The notes under the pieces: model-generated
What the model saw: only the letters and a program-made list of their open reading frames with translations
Database searches by the model: none
What the model was told of the DNA's origin: nothing
Origin: Candidatus Polarisedimenticola svalbardensis
Lineage (GTDB): Bacteria; Acidobacteriota; Polarisedimenticolia; Polarisedimenticolales; Polarisedimenticolaceae
Assembly: GCA_014764515.1 (NCBI GenBank)
Contig: JACXWD010000039.1
Coordinates: 1-32,068 of the forward strand
Length of the DNA: 32,068 bases
Reading direction: 5' to 3'
Program-made: the position numbers and the translations under genes
In this document: piece by piece, positions 2,466-15,123 of the stretch
Layout: each line of letters starts with the position of its first letter
How positions within the stretch are numbered: the first letter of the stretch is position 1

Positions 2466-2514
2466 CGGGGTGGTCGTCTTCCATGGTGGAGGGTGGCCGC
2501 CCCGTTTTTTTTTT
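2466..2514 (+). terminator. Rho-independent terminator after the OmpA-family gene
   Basis: Bases 2466-2475 pair with 2495-2504 over 10 bp, including two G-T pairs, and are followed directly by ten T residues (2505-2514). It starts 21 nt after the OmpA-family stop codon and ends 37 nt before the VWA gene start. This separates the two transcripts and argues against any start for the VWA gene upstream of 2552. Confidence 0.9.
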
Positions 2515-2551
2515 GGCGTACACTGGAAAGGCCCCACACTGGAGGCCGATC

Positions 2552-3577
2552 ATGATTCGAGTGTTCCTCATCATCGCCCTGTTGCTGGCTCCGGCCGCCG
2601 CCGCCCAGGAGGATCTCTCCCTGGCCGACGATGTGGAAGTCACCCGTGTCGTGGTGGATATCAGGGCTGTGGACCCGAAAGGCGTGCCGATCGGCGGCCT
2701 GATTCCGGAAGATTTCGTGGTTCGAGTCGAAGGTGACCCGGTTCCGGTTTCCAGCCTGGACTGGGTGTCCGGTTCGGTGGCCCGGCTGAGCCCCGAGGAG
2801 GTGGCGGCGTTGCCTGATGACCACCCTCTCCGTTCCGGGGCAGGGGCAGGCCGGTTGATCGTCATTTTCTTCCAGCGCTCCCTGGTCCCGACCCGGATCG
2901 CCGGCACCATGAGAATGCTCCAGGAGACGCGGGAGTTCGTGGGCCGGCTCCAGGACAATGATTACGTGGCCACGGTCTTTTTCCAGTCCCACCTGGAACT
3001 GGTTCAGGACTTTACCAACGACAAGCAGAAGATCCTGGCGATCCTGGACGATCAGATCGTGCCTTACAGAACCCAGCCGCCAGCCGAGCCGGGGCCGTAT
3101 CCGTCCCTGGCGGCCTTTTTCGACGTGCAGGCGGGACTGGATGCGGCGACGCCGGAGCACGGTCTGCGGGTGACGGCCGAAGCGCTGAAGGAGATCCCCG
3201 GATCCAAGAGCATGCTGTTCGTCGGCTGGGGGGTTGGAATCATGGTCGGGGGTGTTGTCAAAATGCGGCCGGAATACGAACCGGCCCGCCAGGCCCTGGC
3301 CGAGGCCCGGGTCAGCGTGTTCTCCCTGGATGTCACCCGGGCTGATTATCATTCACTGGAAGGGCCGCTGATCCGGATGGCCCTCGATACCGGCGGTTTC
3401 TATGTGAGAACCTACGACAACGCCAACGTCGCCATGGGGGCGGTGGAGAAGGCGATCGCCGGTCACTATGTGCTGGCGTTCGAAAAGCCCCAGCTTCCGG
3501 AAGGACGTCACCGCATGCGGATACGGCTTAAAAACCACAAAGGCGTGGTGTACCACCGCGAGTATTACAACGACTGA
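2552..3577 (+). CDS. Secreted VWA-domain protein, acidobacterial TIGR03436-like
   Basis: A 341-residue exported protein with a von Willebrand factor type A-like fold; function unknown. The ATG at 2552 is chosen because GGAGG sits 6 nt upstream and the protein then starts with a clean signal peptide (MIRVFLIIALLLAPAAAAQ). The frame is open further left, to 2483, but that extension runs through the terminator. The mature N-terminus (VVVDIRAVDPKGVPIGGL, then PEDFVVRVEG) is the beta-strand module found before the VWA domain in acidobacterial family members. The segments LIVIFFQRSL and KSMLFVGWGVG fit the core strands, but the classical MIDAS DxSxS is not evident: the first strand reads FFQRSLVPT. 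Metal-dependent adhesion is therefore uncertain. The last 13 bases overlap the convergent DUF2061 gene. The protein was placed by overall resemblance, so family-level confidence is good but function is not assignable. Confidence 0.85.
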   Translation: MIRVFLIIALLLAPAAAAQEDLSLADDVEVTRVVVDIRAVDPKGVPIGGLIPEDFVVRVEGDPVPVSSLDWVSGSVARLSPEEVAALPDDHPLRSGAGAGRLIVIFFQRSLVPTRIAGTMRMLQETREFVGRLQDNDYVATVFFQSHLELVQDFTNDKQKILAILDDQIVPYRTQPPAEPGPYPSLAAFFDVQAGLDAATPEHGLRVTAEALKEIPGSKSMLFVGWGVGIMVGGVVKMRPEYEPARQALAEARVSVFSLDVTRADYHSLEGPLIRMALDTGGFYVRTYDNANVAMGAVEKAIAGHYVLAFEKPQLPEGRHRMRIRLKNHKGVVYHREYYND

Positions 3578-3871: not shown

Positions 3872-6595
3872 GTGATGTTCCGGCACCTGACCAGCAGCAC
3901 CCTGGATCGAATCACCGCCCACCCCAAGCGTGTGCTGGCCGCGTTCCTGTTGTTGACGGCGGTGGCGGTGTTGCTTGGCGCCAGGATTGAATTCCGGGAC
4001 TCGCGGTCGGACCTGGCCGCTGCAGACGATCCGGAGCAGGCCCGCTTCCAGAAACTTATTGATGACTTCAACGGCTCGGAGGCGCTGGTGGTGGCGGTGG
4101 AGCCGGTTGCCGGTGTCGACCTCGACCCGCTCGTGCTCAGACGGTTCACCGACGAACTGGCAAAGCGGATCGGCCGGTTGTCCGTTGTCGATACGGTGTT
4201 CCATCGCGTGGAGGTGGAACGCCTCCTGGTCGGTTCACTCTGGTCCCTGCCGCCTCAGGATCTTGTTCGGACGGTGGATCAGGTTGAGGAGCTGTTACCC
4301 GGTCTTCAGGCGTTGCTCGGTCGGTTCGGTCCGGAAGCGTTGACCCGGTTCATCGACAACATGATGCAGTCCGGCGCCGGCGCCGCCCTGACCCCGGAAG
4401 ATCGGGAAGAAGGGATCGGACGGCTGGTTGAACTGCTGGCGGTTCAGAAGCGGTTTCTTGAGAACCCTGAAGAGCTTGTGTCCCGCCTGGAGCACGCCGG
4501 GCTGATGCAGCTCCTGGCCGCCGGCGCCGGTGAATCCGGGGCCGACGGTTATCTGGCCACATCCGACGGCAGGACCCTGTTCCTGTTTGTCTCGCCTGCG
4601 GACACCAGCGACGCCCTCCCGGCCCAGCGAGCTCTGGTGGACGCGGTGCGGCAGGCGGCGGCCCTGCTGGTCCTGGAACGGCCCGGTTTTCAGATCGGCC
4701 TTACTGGCCAACCGGCCCTGGTGGTGGAAGAGATGGCGGCGATCTCGACCGATACCTGGAAAACCTCAGCGCTAGCGATTGCCGGTGTTTTGCTCCTGAC
4801 CCTTCTGGTGTTCCGATGGAAGTTCCATGCGGTGCTGGTTCTGGCGGCGCTGGCCACCGGCGTCGCCCTGGCCCTGGGAGCGGTCTACCTGGAACTCGGC
4901 TACCTCAATCTGATCACCTCGTCGTTCATCTCTACCCTGATCGGGGTCGGGATCGCTTACGGAATCCACCCGGTCTCGGAATATGAGCTGATGGGGGCCC
5001 ATACGGTGCCTCCGGAGGAATCGGTGAAGAAGGCGTACCGTCATACAGGTGCGGCAGTGACCACCGCCGGGGTCACCACGGCGGCCGCATTCTTCTCCAT
5101 TGTGCTGATGGATTTCAAGGGGTTCGCCGAACTGGGGGTCGTAGCCGGAGGCGGAGTTCTTCTTTGCCTGCTCTCCGCGCTGGTGCTCCTCCCTGCACTC
5201 CTGGTTCTTCACGCCCGCTACCGGCGCAAGCGCGGCGTGGGACGAACGCGGGCCCAGGTGACGGCGGCCATGGACCGGTTGTGGCTGGAGCGAGGGGCGG
5301 TCTACGCCTGCCGGTTCCCCCGCACCGTAAGTGTCATCGCCCTGATGATCACGGCGGCGGCGTTATGGTCGGCGTTCGGGATCCGGTTCGACACCAATAT
5401 TCTGAAGCTGGTCCCGGCCGGCCTGGAATCGGTGCGCTATCAGGAGAAGATGACCTCGGAATCGGAATTCTCGCCGGTGTTCAGTGTCGTTGCCGTAGAC
5501 CGGCCGGATGAACTGGAGGCGATACGGTCCGGCGCCGAAGGGATGGATTCAATCCTGCGAGTCGATTCCCTGTTGCGGTTCCTCCCGGTGGATCCGGATC
5601 GTTCCTCCGGGCCGATCAAGCGTCTGGCCACCCTCGTTCGATCGGTTCCGGTAAGTGATGCGGAAGGCGGCGTCGATGCCGCCGGTCTCCTGGAAGCGCT
5701 GTCCGGCCTGGCGGACCGTCTGGCCGATGCTGCCGACGATGCGTTCGGCGCCGGTCTGGGCGGTATCGCAGGTTCCCTGGAGGAGGCGCTTGAGACAGTC
5801 GAGGACAGCGCGGCCCTGGTTCAGTCCGCCGGACCGGAACAGGTGGCCCGCTGGGACGCGGCGGTCCCCTTGGTGGAGACCTGGCTGATACAGGCGAGGG
5901 CAGAGCTTATTGCCGCCTCCGAAACAGTTCCGCCGGGGCCCTCCGATCTCCCGGAGTCCATACGAAGTCGCTTCATGACCCGCAGCGGCCGGTTTCTGGC
6001 GTTCCTTCAACCTGCCGGCGACGTATTCGATCCCCGGTTCCTGGAGGGTTACGTCAAGGAATGCCGAACTGTTTCCCGTGAGTCCACCGGCTTCCCCATC
6101 GTGTTCCATCACATGTCCCGCAGGATCACTTCCGGGTTTTACAGGGCGGTGGCGGTCGGGGCGGTGATGGTGTTCCTGGTCCTGCTGCTGGACTACCGGC
6201 GTCTGGGACCAGCGCTGCTGGCCCTGGTGCCGCTCCTGGTCGGGATGATCTGGATGCTCGGTTGCATGAGACTTCTGAACCTTCAGTTCAACTTTGCCAA
6301 CCTGGTGGCGGTGCCGCTGATTATCGGGGTCGGCATCGACAACGGCGTGCATATCGTCCACCGTCTGCTGTACGAGGGCGATGAAGGTATGTCGATCGTG
6401 CTCCGCCACACCGGGAGGGCGATCCTGATCGCCTCCCTCACCACGATGATCGGTTTCGGCTCCCTGGCTTTCGCTTCCCATCGTGGCATGTCGGGCCTGG
6501 GGCTCATCCTGTTGCTGGGAGTCGGCGCCTGCCTGATCACCTCCACGGTCGTACTGCCGAACCTGCTGGTGGCGACAGGGCGCGTGCGACGGTAG
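3872..6595 (+). CDS. RND/MMPL-superfamily transporter (HpnN-like architecture)
   Basis: A 907-residue inner-membrane protein with the duplicated RND layout. TM1 (about 20-38) is followed by a large periplasmic domain (about 40-295) and a five-helix block (about 297-450). A second copy follows: a TM near 490, a periplasmic loop to about 755, and five helices to the C-terminus. The length and single-chain design match MMPL and hopanoid-transporter (HpnN) relatives, which move lipids or hydrophobic molecules using the proton gradient; no hopanoid genes are nearby. The second half has GVGIDNGVH with Asp at the expected relay position in TM4, while the first half reads GVGIAYGIH, with Ala there. 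The start is GTG at 3872 or ATG at 3875; neither has a clear ribosome site. It is the first gene of the envelope operon, 37 nt ahead of the solute-binding-like gene. Substrate unknown. Confidence 0.9.
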   Translation: MMFRHLTSSTLDRITAHPKRVLAAFLLLTAVAVLLGARIEFRDSRSDLAAADDPEQARFQKLIDDFNGSEALVVAVEPVAGVDLDPLVLRRFTDELAKRIGRLSVVDTVFHRVEVERLLVGSLWSLPPQDLVRTVDQVEELLPGLQALLGRFGPEALTRFIDNMMQSGAGAALTPEDREEGIGRLVELLAVQKRFLENPEELVSRLEHAGLMQLLAAGAGESGADGYLATSDGRTLFLFVSPADTSDALPAQRALVDAVRQAAALLVLERPGFQIGLTGQPALVVEEMAAISTDTWKTSALAIAGVLLLTLLVFRWKFHAVLVLAALATGVALALGAVYLELGYLNLITSSFISTLIGVGIAYGIHPVSEYELMGAHTVPPEESVKKAYRHTGAAVTTAGVTTAAAFFSIVLMDFKGFAELGVVAGGGVLLCLLSALVLLPALLVLHARYRRKRGVGRTRAQVTAAMDRLWLERGAVYACRFPRTVSVIALMITAAALWSAFGIRFDTNILKLVPAGLESVRYQEKMTSESEFSPVFSVVAVDRPDELEAIRSGAEGMDSILRVDSLLRFLPVDPDRSSGPIKRLATLVRSVPVSDAEGGVDAAGLLEALSGLADRLADAADDAFGAGLGGIAGSLEEALETVEDSAALVQSAGPEQVARWDAAVPLVETWLIQARAELIAASETVPPGPSDLPESIRSRFMTRSGRFLAFLQPAGDVFDPRFLEGYVKECRTVSRESTGFPIVFHHMSRRITSGFYRAVAVGAVMVFLVLLLDYRRLGPALLALVPLLVGMIWMLGCMRLLNLQFNFANLVAVPLIIGVGIDNGVHIVHRLLYEGDEGMSIVLRHTGRAILIASLTTMIGFGSLAFASHRGMSGLGLILLLGVGACLITSTVVLPNLLVATGRVRR

Positions 6596-6632
6596 CGCCG
6601 GGGTGGGTTAAACTTTCCCGTGGAGGAATCAG

Positions 6633-7454
6633 TTGTTCCGAACTGCCCTGATCCTGATGCTCTGCCTGGTGCCGGCAGTACCTGCAGCTTCGCAGGACTG
6701 TCTGGTTTTCTGCGCGCCTGGGTACCCGGGAACCACCGACGAGGCCCAGCCGACCATGGACCGGTTTGCCGGCGGACTGGCCGCTGCGGCGGGTTGGGAG
6801 CCTGGCGGGCTGGCCGCCGTGTATTACCCGTCCGGACCTGCCGGACTGGAACGCCTCCAAACCCCGGATGTGGTCCTGGCCATGGTGACCCTGCCGTTCT
6901 ACTTGAAACATGGAGAAACGCTGAAGCTGGATCCGGTCCTCGCCGCGGTGGCTGCCGGCGAAGGGGACGGTGCGTGGAGCCTGGTGGCTGCCCGGGACCG
7001 GTTGAAACAGCCGGGCGACCTGTCGGGATGGACCGTCACCGGCCTGCCCGCCTACCATCCAGGGCTGGTTCGCGGACCGGTTCTGTCCGGGTGGGGGGAT
7101 CTCCCGGAGGATACCGAACTCAAGTTCACCTCCCGGGTGCTTTCATCCCTGAGGAAGGCGTCCCGGGGTGAGAACCTGGCGGTGCTGCTGGACAAGACCC
7201 AGGTCGAAGCGCTGCCCTCCCTGCCCTACGCCGAAAGTCTGGAAGTTGTTTACCGTTCCGGGCCGATGCCGACCAGCCTGCTCTGTGTTGTGGACGGCAG
7301 GTTGCCCGAGGAGCGGCGCACCGGGTTGATCCGCTCCCTTCCAGGTCTAGAGGACAGCGCTGCAGGGGCCGCCCTGCTGGAGACGATCCGGCTGGAGAGG
7401 TTCGTTGCTCTGGATCGCGCAGCACTTCAGCGCATCGCCGGGGCGTCGGATTGA
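6633..7454 (+). CDS. Periplasmic solute-binding-like protein (PhnD/TRAP-P-like), TTG start
   Basis: A 273-residue exported protein. TTG at 6633 has GGAGG 6 nt upstream and gives a signal peptide directly (MFRTALILMLCLVPAVPAASQ); no ATG gives a better fit. The body has alternating strand and helix segments with features of two-lobed periplasmic binding proteins: a modest-sized first lobe ending in PDVVLAMVTLPFYL, then a WSLVAARDRLKQPGDLSGWTV segment like the 'L.dLkGk.v' motif of PhnD/SsuA-type proteins, and a C-terminal helical segment. No permease or ATPase partner lies nearby. The RND gene precedes it by 37 nt, and the TatT-like lipoprotein follows with a 4-nt overlap. In TatP-TatT systems a binding protein pairs with such a lipoprotein, so the same may hold here; this is inference. 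Ligand unknown. An alternative is a degenerate binding fold used as an adaptor for the exporter. Confidence 0.65.
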   Translation: MFRTALILMLCLVPAVPAASQDCLVFCAPGYPGTTDEAQPTMDRFAGGLAAAAGWEPGGLAAVYYPSGPAGLERLQTPDVVLAMVTLPFYLKHGETLKLDPVLAAVAAGEGDGAWSLVAARDRLKQPGDLSGWTVTGLPAYHPGLVRGPVLSGWGDLPEDTELKFTSRVLSSLRKASRGENLAVLLDKTQVEALPSLPYAESLEVVYRSGPMPTSLLCVVDGRLPEERRTGLIRSLPGLEDSAAGAALLETIRLERFVALDRAALQRIAGASD

Positions 7455-8335
7455 AGCAGTACAAGATCCTGGCGCTTGCCCTCCTTATCCTGGCCGGCGC
7501 CGCCGGCTGCGTTCCGGCGCTGCGGGAAGCACCGGATCTCCACCAGGTGGCTGATGCAGTCTCGGAAGCCGAGGCCGAGGCCCGGTATCGTGAAGCGCTG
7601 GACCTGTTCGCAACCCGCCGGGACGAGGCGGTTCGGCAGGCCGGCACGTTGCTCCGGGAGTCGGCCGGATCGCTGGACGACCCGACGGCAGCACTCCTGT
7701 CCCTGGTGGAAGTCCTGGTCTGGCAGGTGGAGCACGAACCGGACCCGAACAGCCGGGAGGACCTGGCAACCGGTGCGGTCCATGCCGGGCAGTGGTGCCT
7801 GGACGCTTCCCCCGAACGACCGGCCTGTCGCTATCGCCTGGCAATTGCCGTCGGCGTTCAGGCCAGGGAACGCCCTGGCACCGGCGTGGACGCCATGCCG
7901 CTCATGATCGAACTTCTGGAGGCGGCCCGCGCCGCCGGGCCGGAACTGGATCATGGTGGCCCGGACCGGGTCCTGGCCTTGCTGTACCTGAGGGCGCCTG
8001 GCTGGCCCACCGGTCCGGGAGACCCGGACCTGGGATATGAGCGTGCCTTGGCGGCTGCGGGGATTGCCCCGGATTTTCCGCCGAACCAGCTGGTCCTGGG
8101 AGAGGCGCTGGCCGCGGTGGACCGGGAGGAGGAGGCGGCGGAAGCGTATCGTGCCGCTCTCGTTCTTGCAGAGGCGCTGCAGGAAAGCGGCGGTCGGGAC
8201 GCCCGGGAATGGCGCCGGGAAGCGGAGAGCGCCTTGGCAGGGATGGGAGCCCGGCACTTGTCTCACCCGCCGAAACAGGGTAAGAAAGGTTCGGGCGCAT
8301 CGGTTCCCGAGGGGGAGAGGGTTCGAAAATGTTGA
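7451..8335 (+). CDS. TatT-like TPR lipoprotein (TRAP T-component family), TTG start
   Basis: A 294-residue predicted lipoprotein. Translation starts at TTG 7451, which overlaps the TGA of the previous gene (TTGA, 4 nt), a sign of translational coupling. The signal peptide ends in LAGAAGC, with Cys20 as the likely lipidated residue. The rest is helical. The segment around residues 175-240 (GGPDRVLALLYLRAPGWPTG, then E.AL..AGIAPDFPPNQLVLGEAL and a helix with EEAAEAYRAAL) resembles the TatT/TP0956 family. Those proteins have TPR-like helices and trimerise with a TRAP-type binding protein. The C-terminal 25 residues are basic and low-complexity and overlap the start of the next gene by 7 nt. It probably sits at the inner leaflet of the outer membrane, between the binding-like protein and outer-membrane parts. 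No TRAP membrane subunit (DctQ/M type) is in the window. Confidence 0.7.
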   Translation: MKQYKILALALLILAGAAGCVPALREAPDLHQVADAVSEAEAEARYREALDLFATRRDEAVRQAGTLLRESAGSLDDPTAALLSLVEVLVWQVEHEPDPNSREDLATGAVHAGQWCLDASPERPACRYRLAIAVGVQARERPGTGVDAMPLMIELLEAARAAGPELDHGGPDRVLALLYLRAPGWPTGPGDPDLGYERALAAAGIAPDFPPNQLVLGEALAAVDREEEAAEAYRAALVLAEALQESGGRDAREWRREAESALAGMGARHLSHPPKQGKKGSGASVPEGERVRKC

Positions 8336-10356
8336 AATTGTGCCGCCTGGCGGTATGGGTGATCCTGCTCGCCGGGCTGGCGGCAACGGCAGGTCCGGTG
8401 GCCGCCGACGGCCTGCCTGAAGATCTTCTCCGACCGGAAGGCAAGAGCCGGTGGGATCTGACCGCGGCGCCGGCCCGGATCGGTGATCTCGCACCCCTGG
8501 GTGATAACGAGGTCTGGCTCCATCCGGAGCGGTTCCGGGACCGGCTGGCGCCGGGACACCGCAGCAGCCTGGTGCTGGCCGATTCTCTCGTGGAGATTCA
8601 GGTGGTCGGCATCGGCTGGGCCGATCTTCCCGGCGGGCCCAGGGAGGTTGTCCTTCAGCGCGCCGTCATCTACACCACAGGCGGCCGGACCCTGGCGTAC
8701 CGCTGGGTCGATCCGATGGCCGGCATCGTAGCCGAAGTACTGGGTGAAGGTGAACCGGGCCTGGTCGGCCTGACCACGGTGGTCAGCGGATCGGTGAAAG
8801 ACGGGGTGATCGAAGCGGCCGCCGATCTGAAAATCTATTCCGGCGAGGTCGTCAAAGCGGTGGAAACCTCCATGTTGTACGGCTGGGACCGGGGGGAGAA
8901 TACTCCGGTGTCCTCCCTGACTCCCGATGCCCATGGCACGATCGGGGACCTGATCGACGCAGCCACCTGGGACTTTTCCGGGAACACGTCGGGGACCATC
9001 GTCGCCCAGATCGAGCGCAACATCAGTTCGGCCGAGACCTGCAATTACGACCAGTGCGGCTACAACCTGCCTGGAGCTACGCTGGGCCGCCAGGACCACG
9101 GCTTCGACGGCGTGGACGGCTTCACCAACAACCAGGTGACCGAATCGACCCAGGACGCAGCCGGAGTGACCGTCTGGCTCCGGGCCGGCCGGCAGAAGGA
9201 AGGGGCTACCGGGGCGTTCGGAACCGGCGAGACCGGTTTCTGCTGGACCACCGATGTCAACGAGACCCGGACGCCGGTGCGGCTGTGGCAGTTCGGCCAC
9301 CAGGACGCCGACGGCTGGTACATGCAGGCCGGCGATGCGTGGAGCGACGGGCCGTTCAACTGTGAACAGTCCCTCTACAATTACAGCAACGGGTGCGGAT
9401 CGGGAACCTGGCCCAGCGAACTGTACGTCAAATCCTGTTCCGGTTTTTCCGGCACCCAGTCGGCGGAAGTGATCAAGGGCGGGGTGGTGACCCTGCCGTC
9501 GGGGCACACGCTGAACGCCTTGCTGGTGAGAACCCTGGCGGAGTTCTGTGTTTACACAGGCTCCAGTTGCTTCATTGCGACCGACGATGTCCGCACCGTG
9601 GTGTACCTGTGGCAGGTGCCGGAACTGGGGACGGTGGTGCTTTTGCAGTCCGACCAGTCGGTACCGGACACCACATCGTTCACCACGCTTCAGAACACCA
9701 ACATCACGTTCGGGCTGTTTCCACCGGTGTCGATCTCCACCACCGGCGCCGGTTCCGATACGGTCAGCCTGTCGTGGAACCCGGGGAACGATACGTCCTA
9801 TATCGACGGTTACAGGATTTACTGGGACACCGACTCCGGTTCGGCGACGCCGTACGCTTTCAACTCGGTGGACAACCCCGGCCAGGTCACCATGGTGGGA
9901 ACCACTGCGACGATCTCCGGCCTGGATTCTGCGACCGATTATTTCTTCACTGTGGCTTCCTACTCGGATTACGTTTCGCCGTCCAGCGGCCTGACGGTGC
10001 GCCATGAGAGCGTGCTCTATCCGACCCAGGTGTCCGGCGACCCGGACCATGTTTACCCGGTGGAGGTTATGGCCAGCACCGGCGGCGGCTGCACGCCAAC
10101 AGCCGAGGTGCAGAACGTGACTATCGGCAAGTCCGGCGCCGACGTGCAGTTATGCTGGGACGCAGCCACCGATACATGTATGGACGGGTACGATATTCAC
10201 TGGGCAGTCGCTGCAGATACCGCCGCCGGCTTTTCGGTCCTGGCCTCCACCGACAGCGCCACTACCTGCTGGACCGGCAACCCGGCGGAAGGTTTCTTCC
10301 TCGTAACGGTGCGAGGCCCGGTTGGAAACGGGCCCTGGGGCCATTACGGCCAGTGA
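8329..10356 (+). CDS. Secreted Cys-rich protein with two fibronectin type III domains
   Basis: A 675-residue exported protein of unknown function. ATG at 8329 follows a purine-rich GGGGGAGAGG at 8311-8320 and overlaps the lipoprotein gene by 7 nt. The signal peptide is about residues 1-27 (LLAGLAATAGPVAADG). Residues about 28-460 form a domain not recognised here: the first part is beta-rich, and the middle holds many cysteines and aromatic/Gly-rich turns (ETCNYDQCGYNLPG, GFCWTTDVNETR, NYSNGCGSGTW, CSGFSG), suggesting disulfides. A fibronectin-III domain follows at about 464-560 (VSLSWNPGNDTSYIDGYRIYW, then TISGLDSATDYFFTVAS). A second, Cys-containing one runs from about 593 to the end (VQLCWDAATD.CMDGYDIHW), closing in GPWGHYGQ. 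It probably acts outside the cell or on its surface, beside the TonB receptor encoded next. No catalytic motif was recognised. Confidence 0.8.
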   Translation: MLKLCRLAVWVILLAGLAATAGPVAADGLPEDLLRPEGKSRWDLTAAPARIGDLAPLGDNEVWLHPERFRDRLAPGHRSSLVLADSLVEIQVVGIGWADLPGGPREVVLQRAVIYTTGGRTLAYRWVDPMAGIVAEVLGEGEPGLVGLTTVVSGSVKDGVIEAAADLKIYSGEVVKAVETSMLYGWDRGENTPVSSLTPDAHGTIGDLIDAATWDFSGNTSGTIVAQIERNISSAETCNYDQCGYNLPGATLGRQDHGFDGVDGFTNNQVTESTQDAAGVTVWLRAGRQKEGATGAFGTGETGFCWTTDVNETRTPVRLWQFGHQDADGWYMQAGDAWSDGPFNCEQSLYNYSNGCGSGTWPSELYVKSCSGFSGTQSAEVIKGGVVTLPSGHTLNALLVRTLAEFCVYTGSSCFIATDDVRTVVYLWQVPELGTVVLLQSDQSVPDTTSFTTLQNTNITFGLFPPVSISTTGAGSDTVSLSWNPGNDTSYIDGYRIYWDTDSGSATPYAFNSVDNPGQVTMVGTTATISGLDSATDYFFTVASYSDYVSPSSGLTVRHESVLYPTQVSGDPDHVYPVEVMASTGGGCTPTAEVQNVTIGKSGADVQLCWDAATDTCMDGYDIHWAVAADTAAGFSVLASTDSATTCWTGNPAEGFFLVTVRGPVGNGPWGHYGQ

Positions 10357-10370
10357 AAGGGGCGGAAGCG

Positions 10371-13304
10371 TTGATCCCTGGATTCAGAACGGTTGCCCTG
10401 GCGCTGGCGACGACGATCCTGGCGGCACTCCCGGCCATGGCCCAGAGCACATCGGGGCAACTGGACGGCAAGGTGGTGGACGGAAGAGGCGGCGTTGTGG
10501 CCGCCGCCGTGGTCCAGGTCCGTTCGGGAACGACCGGGATGGTACGCACCGCCATAACAGACGCCGACGGCCGGTTCACCGTGCAGGAACTGGAGCCCGG
10601 CGGGTGGACCGCAGTGGCCCGGTCCTCCGACGGCAAACTCAGCGATTCGCACAGCTTCGAACTTTCCCTGCAGCAGACGGTCAGGATCCGACTCCAGATC
10701 GGTGAAGGCCTCACCGAAACCGTACTGGTTGAAGCGGATACCGCGCTGATTGACTCGAAACGGACCGGCGGAGAATTGAGGATCGGCCGCGGGGTGGCCG
10801 CTGCCCTGCCGATGGCCGGCGATGCGGTCCTGGACCTGGCCATGCTGGACGCTTCCGTGAAGCAGACCGCCGCCAACCAGTACTCCGGGGAAATCGGATC
10901 GGCCTTCGTCATCAACGGCCAGTCCGGGCGGGCGAACACGTTCCTCGTAGACGGCATGGACAATAACGATCAGACCTCCGGCACCAACCTGAATTCATCA
11001 TTCTCCCAGCAGGCGATCCGGGAATTCGTGATCCTCACCGACAGTTACTCGGCAGAGTACGGCCGGGCCACCGGCGGTGTGGTGAACTTCATCACGGAGA
11101 GAGGCACCAATGAAGCCTCCGGTCTGGTGGCGCTGAACGGCGCCAACAACAGCTGGGGCGAAACCGGAGACATGATAGATCGGCTGCCGGCCCAACCGGG
11201 GCAGTCGGAGAGTTCGAGTAATTTCGGGGCCAGTTTCAGTATCGGCGGACCGCTGAAAAAGGACAAGGCGTTCTACTACCTGAGCGCCGATCATTATGAA
11301 AACAACCTTGTGTCTCCGTACATCGGCCGGGACCGGGACGGGGTTGTCGGAGGCTGGATCGTGGCGCCCAACCGCAACGACAGCCTGTTCCTGCGCACCG
11401 ATTTCAACCTGGGCGAATCGACGTTCCTGATGACACGGCTCTCACTGAACGACCGCAAGACGTCGGACCTGCTGGTTGGCGGCCGGATCACGCCGGAGAC
11501 CGGATTCCAGGTTGAAGAACGGGATGTTCAGTTTGCCGCTTCGCTGAAAACGATTATTTCCCAAAAGATGATCCACGAGATCCGGTTCCTGGCAGGGGAC
11601 TCCACGTTCAGCCAGCATGCCGGCTCCGATCGTCCCGGCGTTGAAAGACCCGGGGGACTTTTCGGCGGTAACAGCCTGAACCGTCAGGAGAGGGCCGAGA
11701 GCCGGTTCCAGATTGTGGATAACCTGACCCTGGTTGCCGGGAATCACACCATGAAGTTTGGAGTGGACATAATGCACTCCACAACCGATCTGAGGGCCTG
11801 GTTCAATCCCAACGGGAACTTCCTTTACGAAACGGACCAGCCGTTCGAACCGGGGGACGGCTTCGAGCTGTTTGTGACCGATTGCCTCAGGGCCAGCGGC
11901 CCGCGGCCCTGTGAAGGTGTGCCAGGTGTGGACGATGACGGTGACGGCCTCATCGACGAGCCGGCGGACAAATCGACCTACCCGATTGCGTTCATCTATA
12001 TCGACGGGCAGCCCAGGGCCGAGATCCGGGACCTGCGGGTTTCCGCCTTTGCCCAGGACAGCTGGCAGGCGACGCCTGGTTTTCTCCTGGACTACGGCCT
12101 GCGATATGAGCTCAGCACGTTCACGCTCCCGGCGGAACTGGCCGTACCCAGCTCGATCCCCAACGGTGGCGCCGGGAAGGACACCGACAATATCGCGCCC
12201 CGGTTCGGGTTTACGTGGCAGCCTGAGGGGAATGAAAACTGGGTCGTTCGCGGTGGAGCCGGAATCTACTATGACAAGCTGGTGCTGGCTTTCCCCGGTG
12301 TCGCCGCCATCACCTCCGGCACCCGTATCGGGATCCTGCCGATCCAGGGTCTGACTTTCGAGATCGACGAGAACCTGGTGGAGGATCTCGGCGTGGAAGT
12401 GCTGTTCCCCGAACTGGCCTTCCCGGACGAGTTCGTGATGCGTTTCTCCACCGGCACCGAGATGGACACGCCGTACAGCGTGCAGTACAGCCTGGGGTTC
12501 GACCGACGGCTCGGCCGGGGAGCGGCGTTCACAGCCAAGGCGGTCCGGCAACTCGGTTACCACATCCCGCTCATGAGAGACCTGAACCCGGTGGTGAACA
12601 TCATCCGCCCGCCGGATGATCCGGAGGGAGCGGGCATTCCGATCCACCGGGACAGCCGGTTCGGCTCCATCGCCGCGGTGGTGACCGAGGGTCGAAGCTG
12701 GTACAGCGGATTGAACCTCGGGTTCAAACTCCGCACCCGGAACAGCTGGGCGACCATGTCCTACACATGGTCGAAGGCGGAGGATATGGGGCCGGATCCG
12801 CTGAAGGGCGGGATCTACCTGCCGCCTAACTCCGACAATCTCGGCCTGGAACGATCGTTGTCCGATTTCGATGCCCGGCACCGGATCGTTCTCGCCGCTG
12901 AAACGCCGCTGCCGTTCATGGGCCTGCGCGGGTCGGTGGTCATGCAGTACTCCTCCGGTATCCCGTTCAACATCACCACCGGCGCCGACGACAACCAGGA
13001 CGGCATTCTCTCGGACCGCCCCGAGGGTGTAGGCCGGAATTCCGGCGAAAATACGGACCTGGGAGACGGACGCCGGTTCCATCAGCCGTCGTTCTCCCAG
13101 GTAGACCTAAAACTGACCAAACCGTTCGTCTACGGCGACGGGGAGCGGGCGGCGGAGGCTTACCTCCAGATCCTGAACCTGCTGCACAGCGATAACGGCG
13201 GGCTGGTGCAGGGGCAGCTGAACAATCCGGCGTTCCTGGGGCAACCCGGGCTGCTGGCCGGACCGTCCCGGATCGTGGAACTGGGCATCCGCCTGGGTTT
13301 CTAG
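10371..13304 (+). CDS. TonB-dependent receptor, Oar-like, with carboxypeptidase-regulatory domain
   Basis: A 977-residue outer-membrane receptor for TonB-driven uptake of a large or scarce ligand. TTG at 10371 is preferred: AAAGGGG is 8 nt upstream and the product opens with a normal signal peptide (IPGFRTVALALATTILAALPAMAQ). GTG at 10353 overlaps the previous stop (GTGA) and is the alternative; the open frame further upstream, to 10152, is a shadow of the preceding gene. Domains in order are a carboxypeptidase-regulatory-like beta-sandwich (GQLDGKVVDGRGGVV...DADGRFTV, about 27-105), a plug (about 120-245, with FVINGQSGRANTFLVDGMDNND and YSAEYGRATGGVVNF), and a long beta-barrel ending in GIRLGF with a terminal Phe. 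An acidic loop, DDDGDGLIDEP, near residue 521 looks calcium-binding. This architecture is typical of Acidobacteriota and Myxococcota. It is the last gene of the envelope operon. Confidence 0.92.
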   Translation: MIPGFRTVALALATTILAALPAMAQSTSGQLDGKVVDGRGGVVAAAVVQVRSGTTGMVRTAITDADGRFTVQELEPGGWTAVARSSDGKLSDSHSFELSLQQTVRIRLQIGEGLTETVLVEADTALIDSKRTGGELRIGRGVAAALPMAGDAVLDLAMLDASVKQTAANQYSGEIGSAFVINGQSGRANTFLVDGMDNNDQTSGTNLNSSFSQQAIREFVILTDSYSAEYGRATGGVVNFITERGTNEASGLVALNGANNSWGETGDMIDRLPAQPGQSESSSNFGASFSIGGPLKKDKAFYYLSADHYENNLVSPYIGRDRDGVVGGWIVAPNRNDSLFLRTDFNLGESTFLMTRLSLNDRKTSDLLVGGRITPETGFQVEERDVQFAASLKTIISQKMIHEIRFLAGDSTFSQHAGSDRPGVERPGGLFGGNSLNRQERAESRFQIVDNLTLVAGNHTMKFGVDIMHSTTDLRAWFNPNGNFLYETDQPFEPGDGFELFVTDCLRASGPRPCEGVPGVDDDGDGLIDEPADKSTYPIAFIYIDGQPRAEIRDLRVSAFAQDSWQATPGFLLDYGLRYELSTFTLPAELAVPSSIPNGGAGKDTDNIAPRFGFTWQPEGNENWVVRGGAGIYYDKLVLAFPGVAAITSGTRIGILPIQGLTFEIDENLVEDLGVEVLFPELAFPDEFVMRFSTGTEMDTPYSVQYSLGFDRRLGRGAAFTAKAVRQLGYHIPLMRDLNPVVNIIRPPDDPEGAGIPIHRDSRFGSIAAVVTEGRSWYSGLNLGFKLRTRNSWATMSYTWSKAEDMGPDPLKGGIYLPPNSDNLGLERSLSDFDARHRIVLAAETPLPFMGLRGSVVMQYSSGIPFNITTGADDNQDGILSDRPEGVGRNSGENTDLGDGRRFHQPSFSQVDLKLTKPFVYGDGERAAEAYLQILNLLHSDNGGLVQGQLNNPAFLGQPGLLAGPSRIVELGIRLGF

Positions 13305-13410
13305 CCAGGCGCCCGGATCCGTCCGGCTCGCGCATCCACCGATTTCCGCTAGAATGAGCTTCGATCCACGCACCGGCTACGGGCCGGGAGCCAGGGGAAC
13401 CGAACAGCGC

Positions 13411-15123
13411 ATGCAAGAAGAAAATCAACCGATCTGGAGCTTTGACGACCTTGTCCGGTTCAGCCGGTGGGACGATCCGGAGGTGCGCTACTGGGCTGCC
13501 GACCGGCTCATCCGCCTCCATCCTGAGGAATGTTGTGACGTGGTGGCGGAGTTTCTGCTGGATGATCATCCCGCCACCCCGACCCTGGTGGCGAGACACC
13601 TGGGCGAGTACGGCAACCGCAATCACTGTCCGTTCCTGATCAAGGGGTTCAAGCTGCTCCGCGGCCTGGTGCCGGGGCACTGTATCCATTCCCTAGTGCG
13701 GCTCGGACACCCGGGTGTGATCGAACTGGCAACCATGGCGCTGGATCGGGGCGATCTGGACGACATGGTCCTGGGACTCATCGTCGAGGCGCTGGGAGGT
13801 CTGGGCACACCTGAAGCCGAGGCGCTGATCCGGCGGTTTTACGAAGAACGGGCCGAACTGCTGGCGGAACCGGCAGCGTTGAGGGGCGTCCTCATGGTCG
13901 TCCCTCCGGAAGAGATTCCCCAGGTGATCGACCGCTTCCTCTCCGCCCTGCACTGGAAAGGGACCGCGAGGGCCGGTGAAGGGTTCCGGACCATTATGGA
14001 CTCCCTCAGGATCGACGACGCTTCGTGGTGTTTCCGCACCGGACCTTCGGGTGCACTGGAATTTCGCAAAACCATCAAGGCGGTGGATGCCGGCTACGAC
14101 TGCGACATCCTGGAAGCCATGGGCGAATCGACCATCAAGCACATCGCCGGTAAATTCCGCAGCGGAGACCCTGCGGAAATCATCCGCACCCTGTCTCAAT
14201 GGACGGAACAGGCCATAGCCGACAGAACGGTAGACCCGGAGGACGAACTGCCAGTGAGGATCACCGCCGCCGTGACTTCCTTGGGAGACAAACGGCTCCT
14301 GGACCCGTCCCAGCGTTTCGGACGGCAGTACCACCGCTGGCTGCTCGGTTTCCACCTGTCTGCGGCGTTCGCCGTTGCCCGTTATCGCAACATGGACCTG
14401 GAACTGCGGAAAGCCCGAGGCGATCTGGACCGGCTGCTTCAGCTGGCGGAGGTGGAGACCGCTTTCTCCAATCCGGACCTGCCTCCCGCCATCGCGGTGG
14501 TCTGCAACGGTGACCCGTCCAAAACCGGGATCGCCGAAGAATGGTGTCTCAGGATGCTGCAGGCCCAGGGTCCATTCTTCCCCAAGGTCGTGGCTCTTTC
14601 CACCCTCGGTGAGTTGAGGGCGGTCCAGCATGTGCCGGAGATCCTGCTCTGGTTGTCCGATGAAAATTCGTACATCTACAGCGCCGCCGAAAGGGCCCTG
14701 GCCCGGCTGGGTGACGCCATCATCGGCCCGGCGGTTGCAATGATCGAATCGGGCATCATGGAGCCGGGAGCGGCCCAGTCCATCCTGGCCCTGCTCTGCG
14801 ACCGGGGTAGCCGGATCGCCTACGAAGTCATCCTGGACCGTCTGGACTGGTTCGTAGAAGAGGCCGGCCCGGGGAACACGGCAGAATGGATCAGCCTTTT
14901 CGGGACGGAGGAGTTGATCGAGATCCTCCGTGACTGGATCGACGACGACCCTGTGATGGTCGGGCAGGCATTGCTGACCCTGGGAGCGCTACACGATGTG
15001 GAGATTCCGGAAGAGGAAGAGATTCTCAGGGCGATCGAGCTGGAAAACGCCCGGATGGACCATGAGGGCGGCAGGTCCGGCAGCCTCTCCGGAACCGACA
15101 ACGGGGACGAATATGTTATGTAG
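13411..15123 (+). CDS. HEAT-repeat protein of unknown function
   Basis: About 570 residues, cytoplasmic by absence of a signal peptide or membrane helix. It consists of paired amphipathic helices in tandem, for example DDPEVRYWAADRLIRLHPEE near the N-terminus, LGHPGVIELATMALDRGDLDDMV in the first third, and DENSYIYSAAERALARLGDAIIGPAV in the last third. These fit HEAT/PBS-lyase-like repeats used as protein-binding scaffolds. ATG 13411 follows AGGGGAA at 13393-13399. ATG 13354 is in frame 57 bases upstream but lacks a ribosome site and overlaps a TAGAAT element (13350-13355) that could be a -10, so the shorter form is preferred. The C-terminal tail is acidic (EIPEEEEIL, ending NGDEYVM). The EF-G2-type gene follows 18 nt later, suggesting co-transcription. 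The partner is not predictable from sequence. Confidence 0.75.
   Translation: MQEENQPIWSFDDLVRFSRWDDPEVRYWAADRLIRLHPEECCDVVAEFLLDDHPATPTLVARHLGEYGNRNHCPFLIKGFKLLRGLVPGHCIHSLVRLGHPGVIELATMALDRGDLDDMVLGLIVEALGGLGTPEAEALIRRFYEERAELLAEPAALRGVLMVVPPEEIPQVIDRFLSALHWKGTARAGEGFRTIMDSLRIDDASWCFRTGPSGALEFRKTIKAVDAGYDCDILEAMGESTIKHIAGKFRSGDPAEIIRTLSQWTEQAIADRTVDPEDELPVRITAAVTSLGDKRLLDPSQRFGRQYHRWLLGFHLSAAFAVARYRNMDLELRKARGDLDRLLQLAEVETAFSNPDLPPAIAVVCNGDPSKTGIAEEWCLRMLQAQGPFFPKVVALSTLGELRAVQHVPEILLWLSDENSYIYSAAERALARLGDAIIGPAVAMIESGIMEPGAAQSILALLCDRGSRIAYEVILDRLDWFVEEAGPGNTAEWISLFGTEELIEILRDWIDDDPVMVGQALLTLGALHDVEIPEEEEILRAIELENARMDHEGGRSGSLSGTDNGDEYVM

Follow-up and report, generated by a model that had tools for sequence, protein, structure and literature searches.

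Relatives of the sterol transporter BstABC adjoin a secreted FnIII protein and a TonB-dependent receptor in an Acidobacteriota group-22 bacterium

What could be carried by a set of five adjacent genes whose products would span the envelope, from an inner-membrane RND protein to an outer-membrane TonB-dependent receptor? We addressed this question in silico in Candidatus Polarisedimenticola svalbardensis, in a contig stretch of 32,068 nucleotides (hereafter, the window). The original prediction, made from the sequence alone, described five same-strand genes with short junctions, and the open reading frames lie exactly where it had placed them (Table 1). The junctions are, in order, 37 nt, a 4-nt overlap, a 7-nt overlap and 14 nt. 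The receptor gene most likely starts at the TTG at 10371, which is favoured by normal signal peptide results and by agreement with relatives; the ATG at 10152 would produce a 205-nt overlap with the FnIII gene. The RND gene may start at the GTG at 3872 or at the ATG directly following it at 3875. Internal promoters and terminators, which would separate the genes, were searched between 3500 and 15300. On the + strand no promoter-like site was found and no terminator-like pattern exceeded the shuffled background (6 matches vs 7.3 ± 3.3 in shuffles), so that nothing found in the sequence divides the five genes. Its recurrence in further genera and families within the class puts the five-gene arrangement well beyond chance. 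Just upstream of the unit, at 2483-3577, lies a gene for a VWA-domain protein of the acidobacterial family TIGR03436.

Table 1. Genes of the five-gene unit and the gene that follows it (window positions)
Feature	Coordinates	Strand	Evidence
BstA/HpnN-like RND (MMPL) inner-membrane transporter, 907 aa	3872..6595	+	NCBIfam HpnN/BstA, HpnN structures
BstB-like periplasmic substrate-binding protein, signal peptide, 273 aa	6633..7454	+	NCBIfam BstB, PDB 7t1m
BstC-like T-component/TPR lipoprotein, 294 aa	7451..8335	+	NCBIfam BstC, PDB 7t1s
Secreted FnIII protein: signal peptide, N-terminal part of ~440 aa, two tandem C-terminal FnIII domains	8329..10356	+	Pfam fn3
Outer-membrane TonB-dependent receptor, CarboxypepD_reg + Plug + OMP_b-brl_4 barrel	10371..13304	+	Pfam
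HEAT-repeat protein, next gene after the unit	13354..15123	+	HEAT_2 E 3.4e-15

In BstABC of Methylococcus capsulatus, which binds 4-methylsterols, an RND protein is combined with a binding protein of the PhnD type and with a T-component-like protein; similar Bst transporters are said to be widespread (Zhai et al. 2024, PMC10942540). The RND protein of the window gives nearly full-length matches to two NCBIfam families, HpnN (383.7 bits, cut-off 752) and BstA (373 bits, cut-off 1400), and also matches the HpnN structures 5khn/6wu0 (E~1e-40). It is thus an RND protein, as had been proposed, and of the hopanoid/sterol type, though at about half the HpnN cut-off, and in a genome with no hopene cyclase, it falls outside the HpnN family itself. 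The product of the second gene matches BstB (73.9 bits, E 1.2e-20, cut-off 350) and, at E 10 or better, hits a single structure of the PDB, 7t1m (MCA1014/BstB, E 3.4e-11), in agreement with its description as a binding-protein-like product. The third matches BstC (81.9 bits, E 4.9e-23, cut-off 350) and the BstC structure 7t1s (E 3.7e-14; profile E 6e-33). Pfam recognizes on the triad just MMPL and a sub-threshold Phosphonate-bd domain. For the third product no Pfam family was matched up to E 1, and hence not the TatT family PF16811. Its description as a TatT-like lipoprotein therefore stands as regards a T-component-like protein, the superfamily being reached only through BstC. We rejected a TatP-TatT TRAP system, as there is neither a permease nor a Pfam T-component match and the partners are an RND and a BstB-like protein.

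The three genes are adjacent, transcribed in one direction and follow the order BstA, BstB, BstC. According to these profile matches, they encode distant relatives of the M. capsulatus sterol transporter. Since their scores lie far below the curated equivalog cut-offs, we regard the triad as a Bst-type relative and not as BstABC proper. The suggestion of an undescribed system does not hold for these genes, whose combination was described in 2024, nor is an RND protein in place of TRAP or ABC permeases a novelty, as this is already the Bst arrangement (PMC10942540). The new part is the FnIII-TonB receptor pair joined to the Bst triad; the word “TonB” is absent from the main text of that paper.

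We then compared ligand-contacting residues in phmmer alignments, the numbering of PMC10942540 being verified letter by letter. The sterol-contacting Glu86 of BstC, whose mutation lowered affinity about 4.5- to 100-fold (PMC10942540), corresponds to Glu94 in the window protein, which also keeps the cavity residues Gly128, Arg132, Arg166, Ala175, Pro176, Glu211 and Trp248. In 21 of 27 BstC relatives the residue aligned with Glu86 is acidic (Asp/Glu); there is little or no variation at the Gly, Arg, Ala, Pro and Trp positions of the cavity. In the BstB-like protein the pocket is mostly still hydrophobic, with three changes at positions near the polar head of the docked sterol (Glu118 to Gly, Tyr120 to Trp and Asn192 to Asp). 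These differences would count against a polycyclic lipid as the substrate, but as weak evidence, since head-group mutations in BstB itself changed affinity less than twofold (PMC10942540).

The BstC profile detects relatives in 118 of the phylum's 396 genomes. When named genomes were scanned, 64 Bst loci emerged in Acidobacteriota, Myxococcota/Deltaproteobacteria and Gammaproteobacteria, with the BstB and BstC genes adjacent in 61. The commonest form (42 loci) carries a shorter RND gene on the opposite strand; in loci L077-L135 this RND (about 740 aa) is divergent from bstB-bstC, mostly around 6600-9000. Only 10 of the 41 genomes of the window's class hold a long same-strand RND of the window type. 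Conservation of the triad beyond this genome is confirmed, but the RND is not obligatory. The window's family includes the isolate Mor1, placed by NCBI in Acidobacteriota subdivision 22, which carries the Bst triad without the FnIII-receptor pair. A second BstB-BstC-FnIII copy with the start of a receptor gene, 68% identical, occupies contig C3 of the same assembly (L003:1-3972, 3,972 bases). It could represent either a paralogue or DNA of a related species, contamination of the assembly being 4.86%. Literature on PDB 8g52/8g53 and on Bst with hopanoids or Thermoanaerobaculia provided nothing useful.

Which lipid might such proteins handle? The squalene, oxidosqualene and hopene cyclase families are all without a match in the window genome, whose completeness is 100%, and a self-made triterpenoid is unlikely as the substrate. 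Of the 15 class genomes in which Bst and FnIII genes adjoin, 1 has a cyclase above cut-off, vs 4 of the 5 with Bst and no adjacent FnIII (Fisher 0.005, phylogeny ignored); restricted to good-quality genomes, the counts are 0/10 vs 4/5. By this gene content, genomes of the class with both Bst and the FnIII-receptor pair appear mostly unable to make sterols or hopanoids. These five cyclase-bearing genomes each have a hopene cyclase, accompanied in one by an oxidosqualene-cyclase-like gene. Genome G119, which belongs to the window's order and has a gene of each kind (L154:6453-8363; TIGR03463 669.8 bits, cut-off 851, for the oxidosqualene-cyclase-like one), may make sterols.

Among the 37 Bst-bearing genomes outside the class, 22 contain a cyclase, mostly in Myxococcota and Gammaproteobacteria. 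In about ten loci of Acidobacteriota from other classes, Bst is accompanied neither by an adjacent FnIII gene nor by a cyclase, which weakens the idea, as a general rule, that the receptor pair replaces a missing cyclase. In five Myxococcota/deltaproteobacterial loci (L091, L105, L112, L114 and L136) a hopene cyclase gene is found no more than about 5 kb from bstC. Two of them were examined, L112 (13402-18223) and L136 (1640-6279), and also contain HpnA above cut-off and an HpnG-like gene. This neighbourhood suggests that Bst-type proteins can serve hopanoids; in some lineages, the wider Bst family tracks polycyclic triterpenoids.

The fourth product was correctly anticipated to be a secreted FnIII protein: it has a signal peptide, matches Pfam fn3 (E 1.9e-10) and belongs to a conserved family, characterized by an N-terminal part without Pfam match and two FnIII domains, the second being recognized in the window protein from the model. 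No Pfam family was detected in the N-terminal part in 12 relatives. Members of the family, full-length or split, are present in 20 of the 41 genomes of the class, and 17 of these 20 hold BstC as well. Two AlphaFold runs on 8-row alignments gave poor models (mean pLDDT 52.8 and 54.9), for which Foldseek found nothing below E 0.001. A resemblance of residues 21-138 of the mature protein to three YmcC-like lipoproteins (Z 6.6-6.9 over about 100 residues, rmsd 3.5) was below the level of trust. We also discarded a dedicated sorting tag in the C-terminal domain, as the weak matches in its own genome are ordinary FnIII-like domains, some of them not C-terminal. The window protein ends in GPWGHYGQ. 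Three of four other secreted proteins with a C-terminal FnIII-like domain (L145:7391-9703, L146:991-1788, L147:4263-8270 and L148:4993-6633) end in a comparable GP-x-GHF plus two residues.

Receptor orthologues that adjoin FnIII genes in other families are 44-50% identical to the window receptor over the whole length; the nearest other receptor of its own genome shows 27% identity over 416 aa. Even in genomes where Bst is missing or far away, the receptor gene comes directly after the FnIII gene (5/5). By these comparisons, the receptor is a specific partner of the FnIII protein and not a random neighbour. The same pairing without Bst is compatible with an Oar-like export role for the receptor, whose CarboxypepD_reg, Plug and barrel architecture is of the Oar type. 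Most RND/MMPL relatives are exporters, and the sequence fixes no direction. Oar is required for the secretion of PopC; however, PopC has no signal peptide (PMC6434023) whereas the FnIII protein has one, and in a genome without sterol or hopanoid cyclase an exporter would need a different lipid. We consider export rather unlikely, while keeping it as a serious alternative.

Does the pair belong with the Bst proteins? The FnIII gene adjoins Bst genes in 15 of the 20 BstC-bearing genomes of the class, that is, in 15 of the 17 that hold both. Among its 41 genomes, BstC and the FnIII family are both present in 17, one without the other in 3 and 3, and both missing in 18 (Fisher 7e-6, phylogeny ignored). 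Within the window's family, the pair follows bstC in the window and in L045, is inserted in the order RND-pair-bstB in L048 and is absent from L046. The joining of the FnIII protein and TonB receptor to the triad, as first proposed, is thus upheld by adjacency in 15 class genomes and is kept despite the rearrangement in L048. The HEAT-repeat gene follows the unit in L045 and L048 and stands directly after the BstC gene in L046, and is perhaps part of the unit. Counting against a Bst-linked pair, five genomes carry it without detected BstC (G161, 100% complete, G335 and G215) or far from it (G119 and G145), and several FnIII-bearing genomes have no long RND. These five genomes, and the many Bst loci (most of them) without the pair, could mean that two separate modules are neighbours here: one a lipid transporter resembling Bst, the other an FnIII-TonB pair that serves some unrelated nutrient (a peptide or glycan, for example). 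The adjacency in most genomes that hold both, the overlapping frames in the window and the survival of the association in L048 all argue against this separation, which we judge unlikely.

Taken together, our preferred explanation, held tentatively and with slightly less than even confidence, is a Bst-type unit for polycyclic triterpenoid-like (sterol- or hopanoid-like) lipids, extended in this Acidobacteriota group-22 bacterium by a TonB-dependent surface pair. Its direction would most likely be acquisition from outside, as the genome has no squalene, oxidosqualene or hopene cyclase. By homology, handling of the lipid at the inner membrane would fall to the BstA/HpnN-like RND protein and its transport across the periplasm to the BstB-like protein; at the outer membrane, the BstC-like lipoprotein would receive the lipid or hand it over. 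The FnIII protein and its dedicated TonB receptor would add an energized step at the outer membrane and surface. During uptake, the FnIII protein would capture or present the lipid, the receptor would import it, and BstC and BstB would distribute it. For a TonB receptor of another system, EdcT, a connection with the uptake of a steroid has been reported (PMC7793797). We infer the sterol- or hopanoid-like substrate, the inward flow and the contact between FnIII protein and receptor. Reuse of the Bst fold for another hydrophobic substrate (a carotenoid, a quinone or another isoprenoid), which would fit the lack of a cyclase, the changed BstB head-group residues and the distant similarity to the Methylococcus proteins, is very unlikely given the conserved BstC cavity and the Myxococcota relatives that adjoin hopanoid genes.

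A bolder version of the preferred explanation is a full TonB-powered acquisition of environmental sterols or hopanoids by bacteria that do not make them, in which the FnIII protein, the receptor and reversed or bidirectional Bst proteins lead to placement in the envelope. We find this improbable as a whole. Bst proteins are known from sterol-making methanotrophs, and the relatives found here extend across Acidobacteriota, Myxococcota and some Gammaproteobacteria; in some cases genes of hopanoid synthesis adjoin them, in others the genome is without any cyclase. If the FnIII-receptor pair feeds the Bst proteins, it would define a testable gene set for the bacterial uptake of sterol-like lipids through the two membranes, for which few proteins are known.

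Several known systems resemble parts of the unit. EdcT is, like the window receptor in our proposal, a TonB receptor proposed for a steroid, but it belongs to an estrogen catabolic cluster (PMC7793797), and the likeness drawn here is one of proposed role. Oar of Myxococcus is a TonB transporter with the same domains, and the partner would in both cases be extracellular (PMC6434023). The FnIII protein differs from PopC, however, in carrying a Sec signal and in lacking a protease domain, and the export link is a proposal from analogy. With the TatP-TatT (TPAT) TRAP transporters (Tp0956), the unit shares a T-component-like lipoprotein adjoining a binding protein; it differs in having neither a TRAP permease nor a Pfam T-component match, and in a binding protein of the PhnD/BstB type. 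Its RND protein reaches similar scores with HpnN and BstA (384 and 373 bits), but is below the HpnN cut-off, is paired with BstB- and BstC-like proteins and is found in a genome without hopene cyclase. The closest system is BstABC (PMC10942540), with the same three kinds of protein, near full-length profile matches, and conserved cavity residues and Glu86 in the BstC-like protein. The window unit differs from it by its scores far below the equivalog cut-offs, its changed BstB head-group residues, a genome without sterol or hopanoid cyclase and, beyond the triad itself, its association with the secreted FnIII protein and the TonB receptor.
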